Shown here one piece after another: positions 20,765-35,258 of a stretch of 64,000 nucleotides of DNA. The notes beneath the pieces are model-generated. The model was given only the letters and a program-made list of their open reading frames with translations. It was not told the origin of the DNA and did no database searches. Position numbers and translations under genes: made by a program. Every line of letters starts with the position of its first letter. Position 1 is the first letter of the stretch. The stretch is from assembly GCF_016916835.1 (NCBI RefSeq), contig NZ_JAFFIX010000001.1, positions 558,001 to 622,000 on the forward strand, in the 5' to 3' direction. This stretch comes from Actinacidiphila bryophytorum. Its GTDB lineage: Bacteria > Actinomycetota > Actinomycetes > Streptomycetales > Streptomycetaceae.

Positions 20765-23230
20765 ATGGAACCCACGGAAGAAGACCGCCACCGCATGCTG
20801 ACGACACCGCCCTGGTCGGGACAGTGGGTCGCCGACCGCCTCGGCATCGGGCTGCACGGCGACGGCCTGCACGACCTGCTCGGCCTCGCCCTGCGCCGCA
20901 ACCCCAAGCGGGCGCACCTGCTGGTGTCCAACGTGCTCGGCAAGCACGTCCCGCAGCGCCCCGGCACGGTCTACGGCCACGCCCGCGACCTCGGCCTGCG
21001 GGTCCGCGCCCTGCTCGGCGAGCAGGAGGCCGACCGGGCCGTCGTCGTCGGCTACGCCGAGACCGCCACCGGACTCGGGCACGCCGTCGCCGACGGCGTC
21101 GGGGCCGTGCCCTACCTGCACTCCACCCGGCGCGAGGTGCCCGGCATGGCCTCCGGCGGCGCCTTCCAGGAGGAGCACAGCCACGCCACCGGGCACCTGC
21201 TGCTCCCCGAGGACCCCGCACTGCTCGCCGGCAGCGGACCGCTGGTGCTCGTCGACGACGAGTTCTCCACCGGGCAGACCGTCCTCAACACCGTCCGCGA
21301 CCTGCACCGCCGCCACCCGCGGGAGCGCTACGTCGTGGTCGCCCTCACCGACATGCGCTCCTCGGCCGACCACGCCAGGCTCACCGGCTTCGCCGCGCAG
21401 CTCGGCGCCCGGGTCGACATACTCGCGCTCGCCTCGGGCACCGTGACCCTGCCCGAGGGCGTCCTGACCCGCGCGCAGGCCCTCGTGGCGTCCTGCACCG
21501 CAGAGGACGCCGAGGACGCCGAGGACACGACTGCCGCCGCCCCGGCTGCCCCTGCCGCCCGCATCGACCTCGGCTGGCCCGCCGGGACACCCGACGGCGG
21601 CCGGCACGGCTTCCTGCCCGAGCACCGCGCACGCCTGGAGGGCGCCCTGCCCGCCATGGGCGCCCGCATCGCCGCCGCCCTGCCGCCCACCGCCCGGCGC
21701 GTCCTCGTCCTCGGCAACGAGGAGCTGATGTACGCACCGCTGCGGCTCGCCCAGGCACTGGAAGCGCACAGCGGCGTCGAGGCCTACTTCTCCACCACCA
21801 CCCGCTCACCCGTGCTCGCCGTGGACGACCCCGGCTACGCCATCCGCAGCCGGCTGGTCTTCCCCGCCCACGACGACCCAGCCGACACCGGGTCGCGCGA
21901 GCGGTACGCCTACAACGTCGCCGGCGGCGGCTTCGACGCCGTCGTCAGCGTCGTGGACTCCGCCGGGGACACCCCCGCCCTGCACGCACCCGGCGGGCTG
22001 CTCGCGCAGCTCGCCGCGCATACGGAGACGGTGCTGCTCGCCGTCGTCCCCTGCTACCGACCGAACGGAAACCCTGGCCCCATGAGTGCACCCACCCGGC
22101 CGCTGCGCGGACCCGCCTTCGGATCGTACGCACCGGACGAGGTGGGCTGGCTGCTCAAGGACCTCTCCGACGTGCCGCTCGAAGCGCCCACCGAGGAGCG
22201 CGAGGAGGCCATACAGAGCGGCGGCGCCCACTACGCGGAGTCGCTGCCCGTCGAATACCAGCCCAGCGCCGAATACCAGCAGCTGTTCAAGGCGGCCCTG
22301 GCCACCTCCGCCGAGCGCATCGCCCGCGCTGTCGGCGCCGTCACCGAACTCGTCCTCGCCGAGCGCGGCCCCGACGCCGTCCTGGTCTCCCTGGCCAGGG
22401 CAGGCACCCCGGTCGGCGTCCTCATGCGCCGCTGGGCCAAGCACGCCCACGGCCTCGACCTGCCGCACTACGCCGTGTCCATCGTCCGCGGCCGCGGCAT
22501 CGACCGCACCGCGCTCAGCTGGCTCGCCGCCCACCACGACCCGGCCGACGCCGTGTTCGTCGACGGCTGGACGGGCAAGGGCGCCATCACCCGCGAACTC
22601 GCCGACGCCATGGCCGATTTTCCCGGCTTCCGCCCGGAGATCGCGGTGCTGGCCGACCCCGGGGGCTGCGTGTCCACCTACGGCACCCGCGACGACTTCC
22701 TGATCCCGTCGGCGTGCCTCAACTCCACGGTCTCCGGCCTGGTCTCACGCACGGTGCTGCGCGCCGACCTCATCGGCCCGGGCGATTTCCACGGTGCCAA
22801 GTTCTACCGCGACCTCGCCGGCGCCGACGTCTCCGCGCTGTTCCTCGACACCGTCGCAGCTGCCTTCGGCACGGTCGGCGACGGCGTCGCCGAGGACGTC
22901 AAGTCGCTGCGCTCGCAGGACCGTTCACCCACCTGGGCGGGCTGGGCCGCGGTCGAGCGGATCAGCGAGGAGTACGGCATCGGCGACATCAACCTCGTCA
23001 AGCCCGGCGTGGGAGAGACCACCAGGGTGCTGCTGCGCCGCGTCCCGTGGAAGATCCTCGCCCAGCGCGGCGCAGGCGCCGACCTCGACCACGTACGGCT
23101 GCTCGCCGCCCAGCGGGGGGTGCCCGTCGAGGAGACCGACGGCCTGCCGTACTCGTGCGTCGGCCTGATCCACCCCCGCTACACCCGCGGTGCGACCGGC
23201 ACCGACGGCAAGGCGGTGTCGTCCCTGTGA
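20765..23230 (+). CDS. Fused phosphoribosyltransferase-TRSP / StiP-type PRTase protein
   Basis: 821-residue cytosolic protein that appears to join two enzymes. The N-terminal PRTase (residues 20-240) carries the PRPP-binding motif LVLVDDEFSTGQTVLNTV, followed by a TRSP-like domain (about 280-440: GFLPEHRARLEG, VLVLGNEELMYAPLRLAQAL). The C-terminal half (450-821) matches the second Ter-associated PRTase, annotated as StiP-like, with VLVSLARAGTPVGVLMRRW and DAVFVDGWTGKGAITREL. The usual partners are separate proteins in many genomes. It starts 22 bp after the CitE-like gene and overlaps the HAD gene. Confidence 0.82.
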   Translation: MEPTEEDRHRMLTTPPWSGQWVADRLGIGLHGDGLHDLLGLALRRNPKRAHLLVSNVLGKHVPQRPGTVYGHARDLGLRVRALLGEQEADRAVVVGYAETATGLGHAVADGVGAVPYLHSTRREVPGMASGGAFQEEHSHATGHLLLPEDPALLAGSGPLVLVDDEFSTGQTVLNTVRDLHRRHPRERYVVVALTDMRSSADHARLTGFAAQLGARVDILALASGTVTLPEGVLTRAQALVASCTAEDAEDAEDTTAAAPAAPAARIDLGWPAGTPDGGRHGFLPEHRARLEGALPAMGARIAAALPPTARRVLVLGNEELMYAPLRLAQALEAHSGVEAYFSTTTRSPVLAVDDPGYAIRSRLVFPAHDDPADTGSRERYAYNVAGGGFDAVVSVVDSAGDTPALHAPGGLLAQLAAHTETVLLAVVPCYRPNGNPGPMSAPTRPLRGPAFGSYAPDEVGWLLKDLSDVPLEAPTEEREEAIQSGGAHYAESLPVEYQPSAEYQQLFKAALATSAERIARAVGAVTELVLAERGPDAVLVSLARAGTPVGVLMRRWAKHAHGLDLPHYAVSIVRGRGIDRTALSWLAAHHDPADAVFVDGWTGKGAITRELADAMADFPGFRPEIAVLADPGGCVSTYGTRDDFLIPSACLNSTVSGLVSRTVLRADLIGPGDFHGAKFYRDLAGADVSALFLDTVAAAFGTVGDGVAEDVKSLRSQDRSPTWAGWAAVERISEEYGIGDINLVKPGVGETTRVLLRRVPWKILAQRGAGADLDHVRLLAAQRGVPVEETDGLPYSCVGLIHPRYTRGATGTDGKAVSSL

Positions 23231-24084: not shown

Positions 24085-24501
24085 GGGGCTGGTCTCGCAG
24101 TTCCCCGAGCCCCTGGGTGATTGCCACTTGCTGTGGCGTTGCCTTTCCCCCTGCGGGGTGGGGGGCGCTCCGTTCTCCCCCAGAGGGGGTACCCCCACGC
24201 GCCCCTAAGCACGCTCACCCTCCGCGGAAGGGCGAGGCCCCTGGCAGGGGCCATTGCTGGGCGTAGGAGGACGCAGGCCCAAAGGGGCGCGGGGAACTGC
24301 GCGCCCCGTCACGATGCACCGGAGGGTGCGAGCTCACCGCAAGTGGCAATCACCCAGGGGCGCGGGGAACTGCGCGCCCCGTCACGACGGCGGGAAAGTC
24401 GACCGCGCACCGCAAGGGGCAATCACCCAGGGGCGCGGGGAACGGCGCGACCAGCCACGACGGTGGGAAAGTAGGCGACGCCACTGCAAGTGGCACCCAC
24501 C
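24085..24501. repeat. Dispersed intergenic repeat block C, largest array
   Basis: This 456-bp gap has no supported gene. It holds at least four copies of the GGGGCGCGGGGAACTGCGCG module: one forward (near 24095, diverged) and three inverted in tandem (near 24283, 24358 and 24433). They alternate with the TGGCAATCACCCAGG and CCACGACGG-type modules. The three inverted units follow a period of about 75 bp, which suggests local amplification. Confidence 0.85.
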
Positions 24502-25131
24502 TCACGGGTCCCGGGGGGACACGACCCTGGTGCAGAAGGGGCGAGTCAGCTCGACCCGTCTGGCGTTCAACCGCTCGCTGGACGCGATGAAGGCGCGCGC
24601 TTCGGCCTCGGTGCGCCCACCCCGCACATGCCGCCGCAAAAGGCGGCGCTCGCGCAGCCGGCGCGGTGTCTCGACGTACCAGAGTTCGTCGAGGAGATCG
24701 CGGACCTGCCCCCAGCCGGGCCCGTCGTCGGCGAGGTAGTTGCCCTCGGTGACGACGAGCGCGGTGCCGGCGGGGACGACGAGCCCGGCGGCGACCGGTT
24801 CGTCGAGCCGCCGGTCGAAGTCGGGCGCGTAGACGGGCCGGGTCCGCTCGGAGCGGAGCCGCCCGAGCAGGGCCACGTATCCGTCGACGTCGAAGGTCTC
24901 CGGCGCCCCCTTGCGGTCGCGCAGCCGCAGCCGGTCCAGCTGGGCGTTGGACAGGTGGAAGCCGTCCATCGGGACGTACGCCGCCGTGCCGGCGCCGAGC
25001 CGGTCGTTGACGCCCGCGACGAGCCGCCGGGCAAGTGTCGACTTGCCGGCAGCCGGCGCGCCCGCCAGCCCCAGCAGGGCGCGGCGGCCTGGAATGCTGG
25101 GCACCAGGGCGACCGCGTCATCGACAAGCAT
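24502..25131 (-). CDS. P-loop nucleoside/sugar kinase family protein
   Basis: 209-residue cytosolic kinase of the uridine kinase/phosphoribulokinase-like group. The Walker A motif is GLAGAPAAGKST (residues 21-32), the substrate motif VPMDGFHLSN follows near 53, and VVTEGNYLADDGPGW near 127 is the Walker B region. The pattern matches nucleoside/nucleotide kinase family proteins (YggC/FrcK-like), whose substrate may be a sugar or a nucleoside. A link to the Ter nucleotide chemistry is possible but only positional. Divergent from the O-methyltransferase gene. Confidence 0.85.
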   Translation of the reverse strand: MLVDDAVALVPSIPGRRALLGLAGAPAAGKSTLARRLVAGVNDRLGAGTAAYVPMDGFHLSNAQLDRLRLRDRKGAPETFDVDGYVALLGRLRSERTRPVYAPDFDRRLDEPVAAGLVVPAGTALVVTEGNYLADDGPGWGQVRDLLDELWYVETPRRLRERRLLRRHVRGGRTEAEARAFIASSERLNARRVELTRPFCTRVVSPRDP

Positions 25132-28237: not shown

Positions 28238-28383
28238 CCCCTCCCTCTTCGCCCGGGTGCATTCCGGGCCGCCCCGGCGCCGGCTCGCACGAATGATCGA
28301 GTGTTTGGTGCCGGTATTACTCCTTTCGGGGAATGCTGTACGACTGTCGGCGCGTCGTGCGCCGGGGTGCTGACGATGAACGC

Positions 28384-29145
28384 GTGAGCCTTTCCAGGGG
28401 GAAGCGCATACGCGCGTGGGCGGCACTTGCCGTGGTGACGGCGGCCGTGGGGTCGTGGGGGTTGTGCGGGGCGGCAGCGGCTGCCCCCGGCCATCCGCGT
28501 CCGCCGGCGCCCGTCGGCATGCCCGCCACCGTTTCCGTACGCCTGCCCGTTCCGATGGCCGCGCCCGCGGGCGTGGCCGTGTCCTTGCACCGTCCGAAGC
28601 CGCCGCATGTCCATGTGCCCGACCACGGGCACAGACCGAGGCCCGAACCCGGGCCTCCGCACAAACCGCACAAGCCCCACAAGCCGCGGCCCGCGTACTG
28701 GTGCGGGCGGTGGCATCCGCACTGGCACTGGCCGCCGCCGCTGCACTGCCACAAACCGCCGCCGCCACCGCCGCCGAAGGTGACGCCCAAGCCGCGGCCC
28801 GTGCACACGGTGAAGCCGGCGCCCAGGCCCGCGCCCAGACCGGCCCCGAAACCGGTGCCCAAGCCCGCGCCCAGACCCGTGGCCAAACCCGTGCCCAAGC
28901 CGGCGCCCAAACCCGTACCGAAGCCCGTGCAGCGGCCCAGGCCCGTCGTCAGGCACGCGCCCGCGCCGAAGCCGGCGCCGCCGGCCGTCGTGCACTGGCC
29001 GCGGCAGAAGGTCGAACCGGCCGCGGCACCCGAGCCGCACCGGCGGAAGCTGACGACCACGCTGCTGCTCACGACGGTGCCCGGGCTGCTGGCCGCCGCC
29101 GTGCTCAAGCCCGGCTCAGGGGCGTATCGCAGGAACAACCGGTAG
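28384..29145 (+). CDS. Secreted proline-rich protein with KP/AP repeats
   Basis: 253 residues. A signal peptide is visible: basic SLSRGKRIRAW, hydrophobic AALAVVTAAVGSWGLCGAAAA, then an AAAAAP cleavage region. The mature part is dominated by Pro, Lys and His: PHKPHKPHKPR, WHPHWHWPPPLHCHK, and a PAP/KPV repeat tract at residues 135-195. The C-terminus has a short hydrophobic segment (LTTTLLLTTVPGLLAAAVL) that may anchor it. It probably spans or binds the cell wall; His-rich parts may bind metal. The GTG at 28384 is chosen because it gives a clean signal peptide, though its ribosome site is weak. Confidence 0.72.
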   Translation: MSLSRGKRIRAWAALAVVTAAVGSWGLCGAAAAAPGHPRPPAPVGMPATVSVRLPVPMAAPAGVAVSLHRPKPPHVHVPDHGHRPRPEPGPPHKPHKPHKPRPAYWCGRWHPHWHWPPPLHCHKPPPPPPPKVTPKPRPVHTVKPAPRPAPRPAPKPVPKPAPRPVAKPVPKPAPKPVPKPVQRPRPVVRHAPAPKPAPPAVVHWPRQKVEPAAAPEPHRRKLTTTLLLTTVPGLLAAAVLKPGSGAYRRNNR

Positions 29146-29164: not shown

Positions 29165-29914
29165 ATGTCGCAATGGGTGGTACTGCTGATCGCGATGGCC
29201 GCGGTCTGCGCGGTCGTCGTCACCGTCGTCGTCCTCAGGCAGCGCAGGATCTCCGAGGACGACGATCCGAGCGAGACGCCGGACGTCATCGAGTACATGG
29301 TCATGATGATCGGGGTGATCTACGCGATCGTGCTGGGCCTGGCGATCGCCGGAGTGTGGGAGGGGATGGGCGGGGCGCAGGCCGACGTGCTGGCCGAGAC
29401 GCAGGCGCTGCACGAGGTCAAGGTCCGGGTGCAGGTCTACCCGGCCGATGTCAGGGACAAGGTGCGGGCGGACGTCGACGCCTATGCCGCGTTCGTCGCC
29501 GACAAGGAGTGGTCCTACATGCGCCACCACGGCGAACTATCGCCGCGGGGAACGGAGTTGCTCAACCAGGTGCGCACCGACGTCACGACCTTCGACCCGA
29601 AGAGCGACCTGGCGGCGCAGGCGTACCAGCCGGTGGTGGACGAGGTCGCCGCGGCCGACACGGCGCGGGCCTCGCGCGGCCAGAGCGCGGGCTCGACGAT
29701 GCCGGGGGTGGTCTGGTTCGGTCTGATCACCGGCGCACTGGTGACCGTCGGGCTGATCTTCACGCTGCAGATCAGGCGGTCGGCGAGGGAACTGCTGCTC
29801 GCCGGGCTCTTCAGCGCGCTCATCGCCTTCCTGCTGTTCCTGATCTGGGACCTGGACGCGCCCTTCGGCAGCGGCCTGGCCGTCTCCTCCGACCTCTTCC
29901 GCCAACTGCTGTGA
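29165..29914 (+). CDS. DUF4239 (bestrophin-like) membrane protein
   Basis: 249 residues. Two N-terminal membrane helices (VVLLIAMAAVCAVVVTVVVL and EYMVMMIGVIYAIVLGLAIAGVW) and two C-terminal helices (GVVWFGLITGALVTVGLIFTL and LLAGLFSALIAFLLFLIWDL) flank a soluble helical middle. The EYMVMMIGVIYAIVLG motif and the ending LDAPFGSGLAVSSDLFRQLL are the DUF4239 signatures. A channel-like role is suspected for the family but not shown. It starts 19 bp after the proline-rich gene, so both may be cotranscribed. Confidence 0.87.
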   Translation: MSQWVVLLIAMAAVCAVVVTVVVLRQRRISEDDDPSETPDVIEYMVMMIGVIYAIVLGLAIAGVWEGMGGAQADVLAETQALHEVKVRVQVYPADVRDKVRADVDAYAAFVADKEWSYMRHHGELSPRGTELLNQVRTDVTTFDPKSDLAAQAYQPVVDEVAAADTARASRGQSAGSTMPGVVWFGLITGALVTVGLIFTLQIRRSARELLLAGLFSALIAFLLFLIWDLDAPFGSGLAVSSDLFRQLL

Positions 29915-30021: not shown

Positions 30022-31440
30022 TCAGCGCCAGTTGGACACGTTCACGTTCTCCAGCACGCCCAGCGCGTCGGGCACCAGGACGGCCGCCGAGAAGTACGTG
30101 CTGACCAGGTAGCTGATGACCGCCTTGTCGTCCACCCCCATGAAGCGGACGTTCAGACCGGGCTCGTACTCGTCGGGCAGACCGGTCTGGTTCAGGCCGA
30201 TCACACCCTGGTTGTCCTCGCCGGTGCGGATCGCGATGATCGAGCTGGTACGGGCCTCGGTGACCGGGATCTTGTTGCAGCTGAGGATCGGGATACCGCG
30301 CCAGGCGGGCACGGTGGAGCCGTGGCACTCGACGGGGTCGGGGTAGATGCCGGCCCGCGTCCACTCGCGCGCGATGGCCGCGATGGTGCGGGGGTTGGCC
30401 AGCAGGTAGCGGGTGCCGCGGCGGCGGCTGATCAGCTCGTCCAGGTCGTCGGGCAGCGGCGGCCCGGCGTGCGGCTGGATGCGCTGTTCGTACTCGGCAT
30501 TGTGCAGCAGCCCGAACTCCGGGTTGTTGATCAGCTCGTGCTCCTGGCGCTCCCGCAGCGCCTCGACGGTGAGCTTGAGCTGCTCCTCGGTCTGGTTCAT
30601 CGGCTCGTTGTAGAGGTCGGCGACCCGGCTGTGGACGCGCAGCACGGTCTGGGCGACGCTGAGTTCGTATTCGCGGGGCTTGACCTCGTAGTCGACATAC
30701 GTGGCGGGCAGCTGGGCCTCGCCCTTGTGCCCGGAGGCGAGTTCGATGTTCGCCTCGCCGCGCCGGTTGGCCCGCTGCTGCGGGATCGACCGGACCGCCT
30801 CCAGGTGCTGGCGCAGCGGCCCCGCCTGGGCGAGCAGCTGCTCCAGCTCCTGCCGGCCGAGAGCCAGCACGGTGGTGGCCGCCGCCGCCCGGACGGTGAA
30901 GGCCCACTCGCCGTCCCCGGTCAGCAGCGCCTGCTCGCCGAAGTGGTCGCCGTCGGCGAGGGTGCCCAGCCGGTTCTGCTCGCCGTAGGACCCCTCGCCG
31001 AGCTTCTCGACCTTGCCGTGGGCGATCAGGTAGACCGTGTCGGCCGGCTGCCCCGCCTCCGCCAGGACGTCACCGGGGGCGAACTCCCGCTGGACGAAGC
31101 GGTCGGCGAGCGCGGTCAGCGCCTCCTCGTCGCCGAAGGAGCGCAGCGCCGCGATCTCGCCCAGTTCCTGTGGGATGACCCGGACCTGCGACCCGGTCTT
31201 GACGAACGTCACCCGGCCGTCGCCGACGGCGTAGCTGAGCCGCCGGTTGACCCGGTAGGTGCCCGCGCTGACCTGGACCCAGGGCAGCACCTTGAGCAGC
31301 CACCTGGACGAGATGCCCTGCATCTGGGGGGTGGACTTGGTCGTCGTGGCCAGATTCCGCGCGGCGGCCGTATCGAGGCTCGTACGCGCTGCATCCTGCG
31401 GATTGCCGTGTGCGGTGTCCTGGCCCGCATCAACCGACAT
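30022..31440 (-). CDS. Family 2B encapsulin shell protein with inserted cyclic-nucleotide-binding-like domain
   Basis: 472-residue HK97-fold shell protein of the family 2B encapsulins, which assemble into protein nanocompartments. A CRP-like domain (about residues 92-210, [23 protein letters not shown] and [13 protein letters not shown]) is inserted in the shell fold; the rest carries encapsulin landmarks ([67 protein letters not shown]). Position 179 is Trp (GEWAFTVRA) where a cyclic-nucleotide pocket normally has Arg. I chose the ATG at 31440 because AAGGA is seven bases upstream; the ATG two codons earlier is too close. No known cargo gene (terpene cyclase, prenyl transferase, cysteine desulfurase) is adjacent. 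Confidence 0.88.
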
Positions 31441-31460
31441 GTGCATGTCCTTCCCGTATG

Positions 31461-31534
31461 GGGGTGATACGGGAGTATTCTTTCGGTGACGCTGCGTGCT
31501 TGCCTATTGCCGTATCGAGTGAGAATACTTTTGA
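31461..31534 (-). promoter_or_regulatory. Candidate control region of the encapsulin gene
   Basis: Two short sequences each occur twice in opposite orientation: AGTATTCT (31474-31481) with AGAATACT (31522-31529), and GATACGG (31466-31472) with CCGTATC (31510-31516). The tract is AT-richer than its surroundings. Paired inverted sites 40-50 bp apart suggest a regulator that binds two positions and may loop the DNA. I do not recognise the factor. Confidence 0.45.
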
Positions 31535-31597: not shown

Positions 31598-32281
31598 TCA
31601 GAGGGCTTCGACGACCGAGCTGCGGTCGGGGCCCGCGGCGGCCTGAGGGGGGATCGTCAGCGGAACCGCCGCATAGGCTGCGGCCATCGCCGTACGGCGC
31701 TCGCGACGGAAGACGTAGGCGGCGAAGGCGCCCGCGCCCAGCAGCGCCACGAAGGACATCAGGGTGCCGAGCCAGCTCGCGCCGAGCCACTCGCCGCCGA
31801 CCCAGCCCAGCCCCACGCTGTAGGTGGCCCAGCACACGCCGGCCAGCGCGGACCACGGCAGGAACTCCCGGGGGCGGCGGCGGGCCGTACCCGCGCCCAG
31901 GCTCACCACGCTGCGGCCCGCGGGGGCGAAGCGGGCGAGCACCACCAGGGCGCCGCCGCCGCTCGCCAGCACCTGGCCGAGCCGGTCGTGCGCGGCCGCC
32001 AGCCGCCGCGAGGAGGCCATCCGGCGGTCGAACCAGTCGCCGCCGCGGAAGGCCACCCGGTAGGCGATCAGATCGCCCAGGCAGGACGCCACCGCCGCGC
32101 AGGCCAGCAGGGCCAGTACGTCGAGGATGTCGTCGCTGGTGCCGGAGGAGCCTGCGGTCGCCGCGCTGACCACCAGCACACCGCTGGGCAGTACGGGGAC
32201 GAAGACGTCGAGGAGGACGGACAGCGCCACGAGCACGTAGATCCACGGCCACTCGAAAAGAGAGCCCAGGCCTTGCAGCAC
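31598..32281 (-). CDS. DedA/VTT-family membrane protein
   Basis: 227-residue multi-pass membrane protein. It has the DedA/SNARE-associated pattern: an N-terminal helix and re-entrant loop (VFVPVLPSGVLVVSAA), the signature LGDLIAYRVAFRGGDWF, and ARFAPAGRSVVSLGAG, the FxRxxPxxR-like motif with Arg kept. DedA proteins act in membrane phospholipid (undecaprenyl phosphate or phosphatidylethanolamine) translocation or pH homeostasis. The C-terminus is cytosolic and basic. GTG start at 32281. It is the next gene upstream of the encapsulin on the same strand, 151 bp away. Confidence 0.85.
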   Translation of the reverse strand: MLQGLGSLFEWPWIYVLVALSVLLDVFVPVLPSGVLVVSAATAGSSGTSDDILDVLALLACAAVASCLGDLIAYRVAFRGGDWFDRRMASSRRLAAAHDRLGQVLASGGGALVVLARFAPAGRSVVSLGAGTARRRPREFLPWSALAGVCWATYSVGLGWVGGEWLGASWLGTLMSFVALLGAGAFAAYVFRRERRTAMAAAYAAVPLTIPPQAAAGPDRSSVVEAL

Positions 32282-32863: not shown

Positions 32864-32948
32864 GTGTTCCGACGCTGCCGTGCCGAAGCGACCCCTTTTC
32901 CGTAGGTCTCTCGGCAGGGCAGCCCCTACCGATCGAGGAATCCGACCC

Positions 32949-33530
32949 TTGCTCAGCCTCAGCGTCATCGCCGTCGTCTTCGGCGTGATCTTCCTGGCCG
33001 AACTCCCCGACAAGACGGCGCTCGCCGGTCTCATGCTCGGCACCCGCTACCGGGCCTCCTACGTCTTCGCCGGCGTCGCCGCGGCCTTCGTGGTCCACGT
33101 CGCGCTCGCCATCGCCGCGGGCTCGCTGCTGACACTGCTGCCGCACCGCTGGGTGCAGGGCGTCGTCGGCCTGCTCTTCCTGGGCGGCGCGGCGATGCTG
33201 CTGTTCTCCAAGGGCGACGACGAGGAGACCGTCAAACCGCCCGCCGACCAGAGCTTCTGGAAGGTCGCGGGCACCGGCTTCATGCTCATCCTGGTCGCCG
33301 AGTTCGGCGACCTCACGCAGATCATGACCGCCAACCTCGCCGCCCGCTACGACGACCCCGTCTCGGTCGCCGTCGGCGCGGTGCTCGGCCTGTGGGCGGT
33401 CGCGGCCCTGGGCATCTTCGGCGGCCGGATGCTGATGAAGCGGGTGCCGCTGGCGCTGATCACCAAGATCGCCGCCGGTGTGATGGTCGTGCTGGCCGCC
33501 TTCAGCCTCTACGAGGCGATCGCGGGCTGA
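32949..33530 (+). CDS. GDT1/TMEM165-family cation exporter
   Basis: 193-residue membrane protein with six helices in two inverted repeats. Each repeat carries the family motif: AELPDKTALAG (residues 17-27, a variant of ExGDKT in which Gly is Pro) and AEFGDLTQIMT (near 117). The acidic residues bind Mn2+ or Ca2+. Bacterial relatives (MneA-like) export manganese, which agrees with the manganese riboswitch upstream. The TTG start at 32949 gives the family N-terminus; a GAGGAATCC ribosome site precedes it. Confidence in the metal rests on the riboswitch. Confidence 0.9.
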   Translation: MLSLSVIAVVFGVIFLAELPDKTALAGLMLGTRYRASYVFAGVAAAFVVHVALAIAAGSLLTLLPHRWVQGVVGLLFLGGAAMLLFSKGDDEETVKPPADQSFWKVAGTGFMLILVAEFGDLTQIMTANLAARYDDPVSVAVGAVLGLWAVAALGIFGGRMLMKRVPLALITKIAAGVMVVLAAFSLYEAIAG

Positions 33531-34878: not shown

Positions 34879-34914
34879 CCCCCCGACGCTACGCCCCCGC
34901 CCCGCCCGACCCGG

Positions 34915-35258
34915 CGCGTGGCCGACCGCGCAGTCCCCCGCGCCCCTGGGTGGTTGCCACTTGCCGTGGCGTTGCTTTCTTCCCGCCCGTCCGGGCGGGG
35001 CGCGCAGTTCCCCGCGCCCCTCAAAAACGCTCACCCTCGCAGGCAGACGGCGCCGCCTGACGGCGCCGGCCTCTGCGAGAGAGGGCACCCCTCAGGGGCG
35101 CGGGGAACTGCGCGCCCAATCACCCACGCACCGGGACTGTGAACGCAACAGGATGTGGCACCCACCTGGGGGCGCGGGGAACTGCGCGACCAGCCACCAC
35201 CGCACCGGGAGGTGCAAGCTCACCGCAAGGGGCAGGCGCCCGGGGGCGAGGCCCCCCG
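34915..35258. repeat. Dispersed intergenic repeat block D
   Basis: This 388-bp gap has no supported gene. Forward copies of the CGCAGTTCCCCGCGCCCCT module lie near 34927 (variant) and 35002, inverted copies near 35096 and 35173, with the CCACTTGCCGTGGCGTTGCT and GGCACCCACC modules between them. A long inverted pair around CAGGCAGACGGCGCCGCCTGACGGCG is also present. Confidence 0.85.

Follow-up and report, generated by a model that had tools for sequence, protein, structure and literature searches.

A stand-alone family 2B encapsulin conserved across Actinacidiphila, with geosmin synthase as a candidate cargo encoded in trans

Shell genes of family 2B encapsulins usually, though not by definition, share an operon with the gene of their cargo. 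The window analyzed here, a 64-kb stretch of DNA from Actinacidiphila bryophytorum, contains such a shell gene with no recognizable cargo gene beside it. This locus raises the question of whether the shell is functional and, if so, which protein it encloses and where that protein is encoded. The nearest named relatives of the source genome are A. cocklensis and A. paucisporea (94%).

A sequence-only reading of the window had described the gene as a family 2B shell with a CRP-like insert. Profile searches confirmed this description, with the PF00027 match located between the shell segments. The features of the gene are as follows:

30022..31440, minus strand: family 2B encapsulin shell gene, 472 amino acids (NCBIfam NF041163, encap_f2b, matching residues 21-469 with 756 bits against a cut-off of 400; PDB relatives 9bhu, 9bix and 9bje)
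30034..30783, minus strand: HK97-fold shell domain (SrpI-like), residues 220-469 (Pfam PF19307, 445 bits)
30826..31089, minus strand: CRP-like domain (cNMP_binding fold) within the E-loop, residues 118-205 (Pfam PF00027, 8e-19)
30904..30906, minus strand: codon of Trp179, which takes the place of the canonical phosphate-binding Arg (invariant Trp in 102/102 family 2B shells)

Among solved structures, those of the S. griseus 2B shell (9bhu) and of two shells from S. lydicus (9bix and 9bje) are the closest. A second in-frame ATG is present at 31446, upstream of the start at 31440, but the opening MSVDAG of the orthologues and the spacing from GGAAGG favor 31440 as the probable start codon. About 20 variable residues precede the conserved SLxTAAARN segment of the shell, in line with the N-terminal extension of about 18 residues expected of such proteins. 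No second shell gene was found in the source genome (8.05 Mb, 96 contigs), which sets the system apart from the two-component family 2B encapsulins with their two different shell genes. In itself the shell is an ordinary family 2B protein; what is unusual is its single-gene setting, which is stable.

The predicted model of the whole shell has a mean pLDDT of 52 and is usable for the CRP-like domain alone, which is modelled at a pLDDT of about 70-88. Comparison of the insert with CRP, as the sequence-only reading had proposed, gave a CRP-like fold with CRP, PKG and CNBD structures as Foldseek matches. In a gap-free alignment (W-A-F-T-V-R-A against the PKA-type R-A-A-T-V-K-A), Trp179 occupies the position of the phosphate-binding Arg of a canonical cyclic-nucleotide-binding domain. 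The suggestion of an altered nucleotide pocket was therefore correct for the residue, but not as a peculiarity of this gene, since every one of the 102 family 2B shells compared (Actinomycetota, Cyanobacteriota and Chloroflexota) has the equivalent Trp. The three solved Streptomyces shells (9bhu, 9bix and 9bje) also have Trp at this position, and the 2B insert domains have been reported not to bind cyclic nucleotides, their binding residues being divergent (PMC12407261). Thus, the altered pocket is a family-wide trait of 2B shells, and the question of a ligand concerns the family rather than a single gene.

The genes flanking the shell were those recognized in the sequence-only reading, with Pfam support for three of the four products:

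28333..29145, plus strand: proline/lysine/histidine-rich protein, probably secreted, without a Pfam match; a conserved neighbour and not a cargo candidate
29165..29914, plus strand: bestrophin-like (DUF4239) membrane protein, a conserved convergent neighbour of the shell (Pfam PF14023, 1.7e-55)
31598..32281, minus strand: DedA/VTT-domain membrane protein, a conserved neighbour for which a transcript shared with the shell is not favored (Pfam PF09335)
32880..33530, plus strand: GDT1 divalent cation/proton antiporter, a conserved neighbour (Pfam PF01169)

The whole 64-kb window was searched for cargo genes by tblastn, with geosmin synthase, 2-MIB synthase, polyprenyl synthase, xylulokinase and methyltransferase as seeds, and by motif scans that included a cysteine desulfurase pattern; none was found. 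Neither was a cargo gene found in the retrieved flanks (up to 10 kb) of the 15 orphan loci with long flanks. The claim that no known cargo gene lies near the shell is upheld by these searches, and the orphan state extends across the genus.

Several other features of the neighbourhood were recorded. A bestrophin-like gene 56-64% identical to that of the window recurs near 2B shells in Streptomyces and Kitasatospora (L018 8142-8888, L032 12778-13527 and L057 12795-13541), in one case together with geosmin synthase; the bestrophin-like protein may be a functional partner of 2B shells. Small secreted genes resembling the proline-rich gene were observed in L015, L016, L032 and L057. A large StiP/PRTase/TRSP/PELOTA stress-type protein is encoded at positions 20765-23230 of the window, in a cluster whose downstream gene encodes a HAD-like phosphatase. 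Repeated peptides (RGELRA and GARGTARP) in spurious ORFs at about 24100-24700 and 34900-35250 point to putative interspersed short intergenic repeats.

A shell match was identified in each of the 35 Actinacidiphila genomes. In 28 of these it is a close orthologue, 79-95% identical and full-length in every case, and four genomes (G029, G013, G025 and G007) carry a more divergent shell (64-67%) at the same locus, as judged by its neighbours. The orphan locus is thus conserved in 32 of the 35 genomes. The other three are G006 and G019, with fragments at contig ends that leave the locus undecidable, and G009, in which the only shell directly adjoins geosmin synthase. In G006, a divergent 2B shell (44%) directly adjoins a cysteine desulfurase with N-terminal repeated TPGGL units (L285 4211-7031). 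The bestrophin-like gene is found near the shell in all 15 orphan loci with long flanks, and the DedA and GDT1 families in 15 of 16 loci. The dN/dS of the shell against its orthologues is 0.12-0.25 (Nei-Gojobori). Upstream of the gene lies a further conserved feature:

31504..31523, minus strand: 20-base conserved upstream element CTCACTCGATACGGCAATAG, probably the promoter/operator region of the shell gene itself, present in 38 orphan-clade loci

The element (CTCACTCGNTNCGGCAATAG) is located about 85 bases before the shell start. It was found in the 38 orphan-clade loci and in none of the other fetched loci, and has a single match in the window, with 0.00 expected. An imperfect inverted repeat, CCGTAT..ATACGG, follows the element and adjoins the ribosome-binding site. 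Based on the conservation of the locus, the dN/dS values and the conserved element, the shell gene is under purifying selection and is probably transcribed on its own. A transcript shared with DedA was considered and is disfavored, as the stretch from the conserved element to DedA varies among loci although the element itself does not. Furthermore, G029, G025 and G007 have DedA on the opposite strand, and in PH10-H1 a hydrolase gene intervenes. The orphan state is of long standing and has been maintained.

In the shell tree, the orphan clade has a support of 99; the branch of row L111 carries no meaning, as the wrong strand was used for this row, and the orphan clade is unaffected by it. The sister group is a clade in which three strains carry a duplicated shell beside 2-MIB synthase, showing that the orphan shell lineage is able to pair with a terpene cyclase. 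In three strains of the Actinacidiphila lineage (L017, L167 and L168), a second shell copy, 76-79% identical, is located beside 2-MIB synthase; these copies represent a recent duplication that gained linkage to a cargo gene.

Decay following the loss of an encapsulin operon would fit the absent linkage, but this explanation is very improbable given that 28 of 28 close orthologues are full-length, with low dN/dS and a conserved upstream element. If the shell is functional, its cargo may be encoded elsewhere, and geosmin synthase, present in 35/35 Actinacidiphila genomes, is a candidate. In the source genome, the enzyme is encoded on contig C45, at least 269 kb from the shell as estimated from the distances to the contig ends; where Actinacidiphila genomes are complete, a distance of 0.26-0.56 Mb separates the two genes. 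The enzyme displays GPTGIGTSAA in the linker separating its two cyclase domains and GATGLGTSAARL near the C-terminus (a GATGLGTSAAR motif). The sequence GPTGLGTSAAR in the linker and at the C-terminus has been proposed as possibly targeting geosmin synthases to the shells they are associated with (Andreas and Giessen, PMC8346489), and motifs occupy the same two positions in shell-adjacent geosmin synthases from Cyanobacteriota, Chloroflexota and Actinomycetota. In the AlphaFold model of the shell-linked geosmin synthase of S. megasporus, only residues 328-378 and 714-772 have a pLDDT below 50, and these segments, predicted to be disordered, hold both motif copies. The sequence-only reading had implied a distant or novel cargo. 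A distant candidate with cargo-type motifs does exist; since it is of a known type, novelty is not required.

At least one strict motif copy was present in 31/31 readable Actinacidiphila geosmin synthases, with both copies in 17, and eight genomes of the genus have a single copy (linker or tail) or a weakened one. Among sampled Streptomyces enzymes, a strict copy was present in 15 of 32. Ten Streptomyces genomes with a single shell have a polyprenyl synthase beside it (G055, G069, G075, G081, G084, G102, G135, G141, G153 and G157), and in seven of these ten the geosmin synthase has no clear motif copy. In a large group of Streptomyces geosmin synthases (G042, G063, G084, G157 and similar), the linker is degenerate (GPGTSAADV) and the C-terminal motif is absent, suggesting that packaging was lost in this group. 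The GPTGxGT motif is informative only in its context. As a genome-wide cargo finder the bare pattern was rejected, with 13 matches in the genome compared to 42 for the reversed control; most coding matches were sedolisin-like peptidases, which read GPTGLGTP and not GPTGLGTSAA.

The co-occurrence of geosmin synthase and family 2 shells was analyzed in a sample of 395 Actinomycetes genomes, with geosmin synthase called at E up to 1e-100. A family 2 shell was identified in 94 of 94 genomes with geosmin synthase, as compared to 25 of 301 without it (Fisher's p = 5e-68); the genomes are related and not phylogenetically independent, so that these counts show an association rather than independent events. 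Not one of the 395 genomes had a geosmin synthase without any 2B shell. The 25 shell-bearing genomes that lack the enzyme include 15 whose shell scores more like family 2A and 10 more like 2B. In family f16, geosmin synthase is located beside the shell in most cases. Several f15 genomes show the order shell, geosmin synthase, shell. In G265, G297, G321, G373 and G381, the enzyme gene is flanked by two different 2B shell genes. Geosmin synthase is known to be linked to 'cnb' genes in Cyanobacteria and Deltaproteobacteria, a linkage known to be less conserved in Actinobacteria (PMC7251104).

Our preferred explanation, to which we assign a probability of about 0.57, is a functional family 2B encapsulin with its cargo supplied in trans, most likely geosmin synthase. 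From the observed tags, co-occurrence, selection and locus conservation, we infer that two GPTGLGTSAA(R)-type tags would attach to the inner surface of the shell, and that the enzyme would be packaged through the attached tags in the course of shell assembly. The externally displayed CRP-like domains would lie over part of the two-fold pores and may modulate the passage of substrate and product, and their ligand, if any, would not be a cyclic nucleotide. Geosmin synthesis would then be compartmentalized, as has been reported for 2-MIB synthesis, despite the distance between the shell and enzyme genes. Weighing against this explanation, the two genes are unlinked and share no upstream element; co-regulation through the 20-base element was considered and rejected, as no match was found near geosmin synthase. 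The loading role of the motif in geosmin synthase is itself a published proposal, and the enzyme evidently functions without the motif, which about half of the sampled Streptomyces enzymes lack. Finally, unlinked enzymes with the motif are also present in Pseudonocardiaceae-type genomes, where the shells may serve other partners.

Three alternatives accept a functional shell. That the cargo is a different, so far unrecognized protein encoded elsewhere is unlikely. None of the conserved neighbours is a plausible soluble cargo, and 2B cargos beyond the terpene cyclases often have no common motif (PMC8346489), both of which would suit such a protein; yet geosmin synthase, which is universal and bears the motif, is already present as a candidate of a known cargo type. 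A polyprenyl synthase acting in trans was considered and rejected. The best two of five matches in the source genome, one from a hopanoid cluster on C17 and one from a cyclase-P450 cluster on C4, fall outside the shell-linked group. They are about 40-51% identical to shell-linked enzymes, whereas the latter share 53-61% identity with the shell-linked enzyme of L080. Slightly more doubtful is that the cargo in trans is the genome's own 2-MIB-synthase-like cyclase, alone or alongside geosmin synthase. This enzyme (G000:C66:84919-86055, followed by its methyltransferase) is encoded on another contig than the shell and has no shell of its own. The closest shell paralogues (G018, G020 and G021; 76-79% identical) adjoin 2-MIB synthase, and the shell relatives in S. 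griseus and S. coelicolor serve 2-MIB operons. However, six genomes with a close orthologue of the shell (G003, G008, G022, G028, G030 and G031) have no 2-MIB synthase match. The enzyme also lacks the GPTGLGT motif, although the shell-linked 2-MIB synthases of Actinacidiphila lack it too, and for this reason its absence was dropped as a negative control.

We consider it about as doubtful that the shell encloses no enzyme and has, for instance, a role in development as a sequestering particle or a regulator like EshA. Streptomyces EshA has been reported to influence ppGpp levels, differentiation and antibiotic production, and a single-gene locus with its own conserved upstream element would be consistent with such a role. 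However, EshA (SCO7699) is the shell of a 2-MIB operon, so that its phenotypes are no proof of a cargo-free role, and family 2B shells are otherwise associated with enzymes (PMC8346489).

The packaging of geosmin synthase in trans may be part of a broader arrangement, to which we give slightly less than even odds. The genus would possess a stand-alone 2B shell with its own promoter, stably split from its cargo gene, that packs geosmin synthase through paired linker and tail tags and is possibly shared by several terpene cyclases. Geosmin synthesis in Actinomycetes would then be tied to a 2B shell even without linkage. If the trans-cargo explanation is true, gene neighbourhood alone is insufficient for assigning the cargo of family 2B encapsulins, and shells catalogued without cargo may have one encoded elsewhere. 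It would also become testable why a family 2 shell accompanies every sampled geosmin synthase, and whether geosmin, like 2-MIB, forms inside a protein compartment.

Comparison with known systems places the shell closest to the S. griseus 2B encapsulin (PDB 9bhu, 9bhv and 9bi0; 672 bits to 9bhu, full-length) and to EshA/SCO7699, which have the same domain architecture and the same invariant Trp in the insert. By analogy, a T=1 shell with external CRP-like domains is expected here. Those shells differ in belonging to an operon with 2-MIB synthase and methyltransferase (SCO7699), whereas no cyclase is adjacent to the present shell and the 2-MIB-synthase-like gene is on another contig. The two-component shells of S. 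lydicus (PDB 9bix and 9bje; xylulokinase operon) are also similar over their full length (667 and 648 bits), but have two shell genes per operon (PMC12407261), as compared to one in the whole genome here. The 2B-polyprenyl synthase systems of Streptomyces, common in the same bacterial family, likewise have a single shell gene of the same family; there, the polyprenyl synthase directly adjoins the shell, which is not the case here. In the geoA-cnb cluster of Cyanobacteria and Deltaproteobacteria (PMC7251104), geosmin synthase is followed by two 'cnb' genes, whose products in the fetched cyanobacterial loci are family 2B shells, 60-63% identical to the shell described here. The cyanobacterial geosmin synthase carries the same two motifs as the Actinacidiphila enzyme, in the linker and at the C-terminus. 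Thus, shell and motif-bearing enzyme form a linked cluster in those bacteria, whereas in the source genome they are not adjacent but separated by at least 269 kb.
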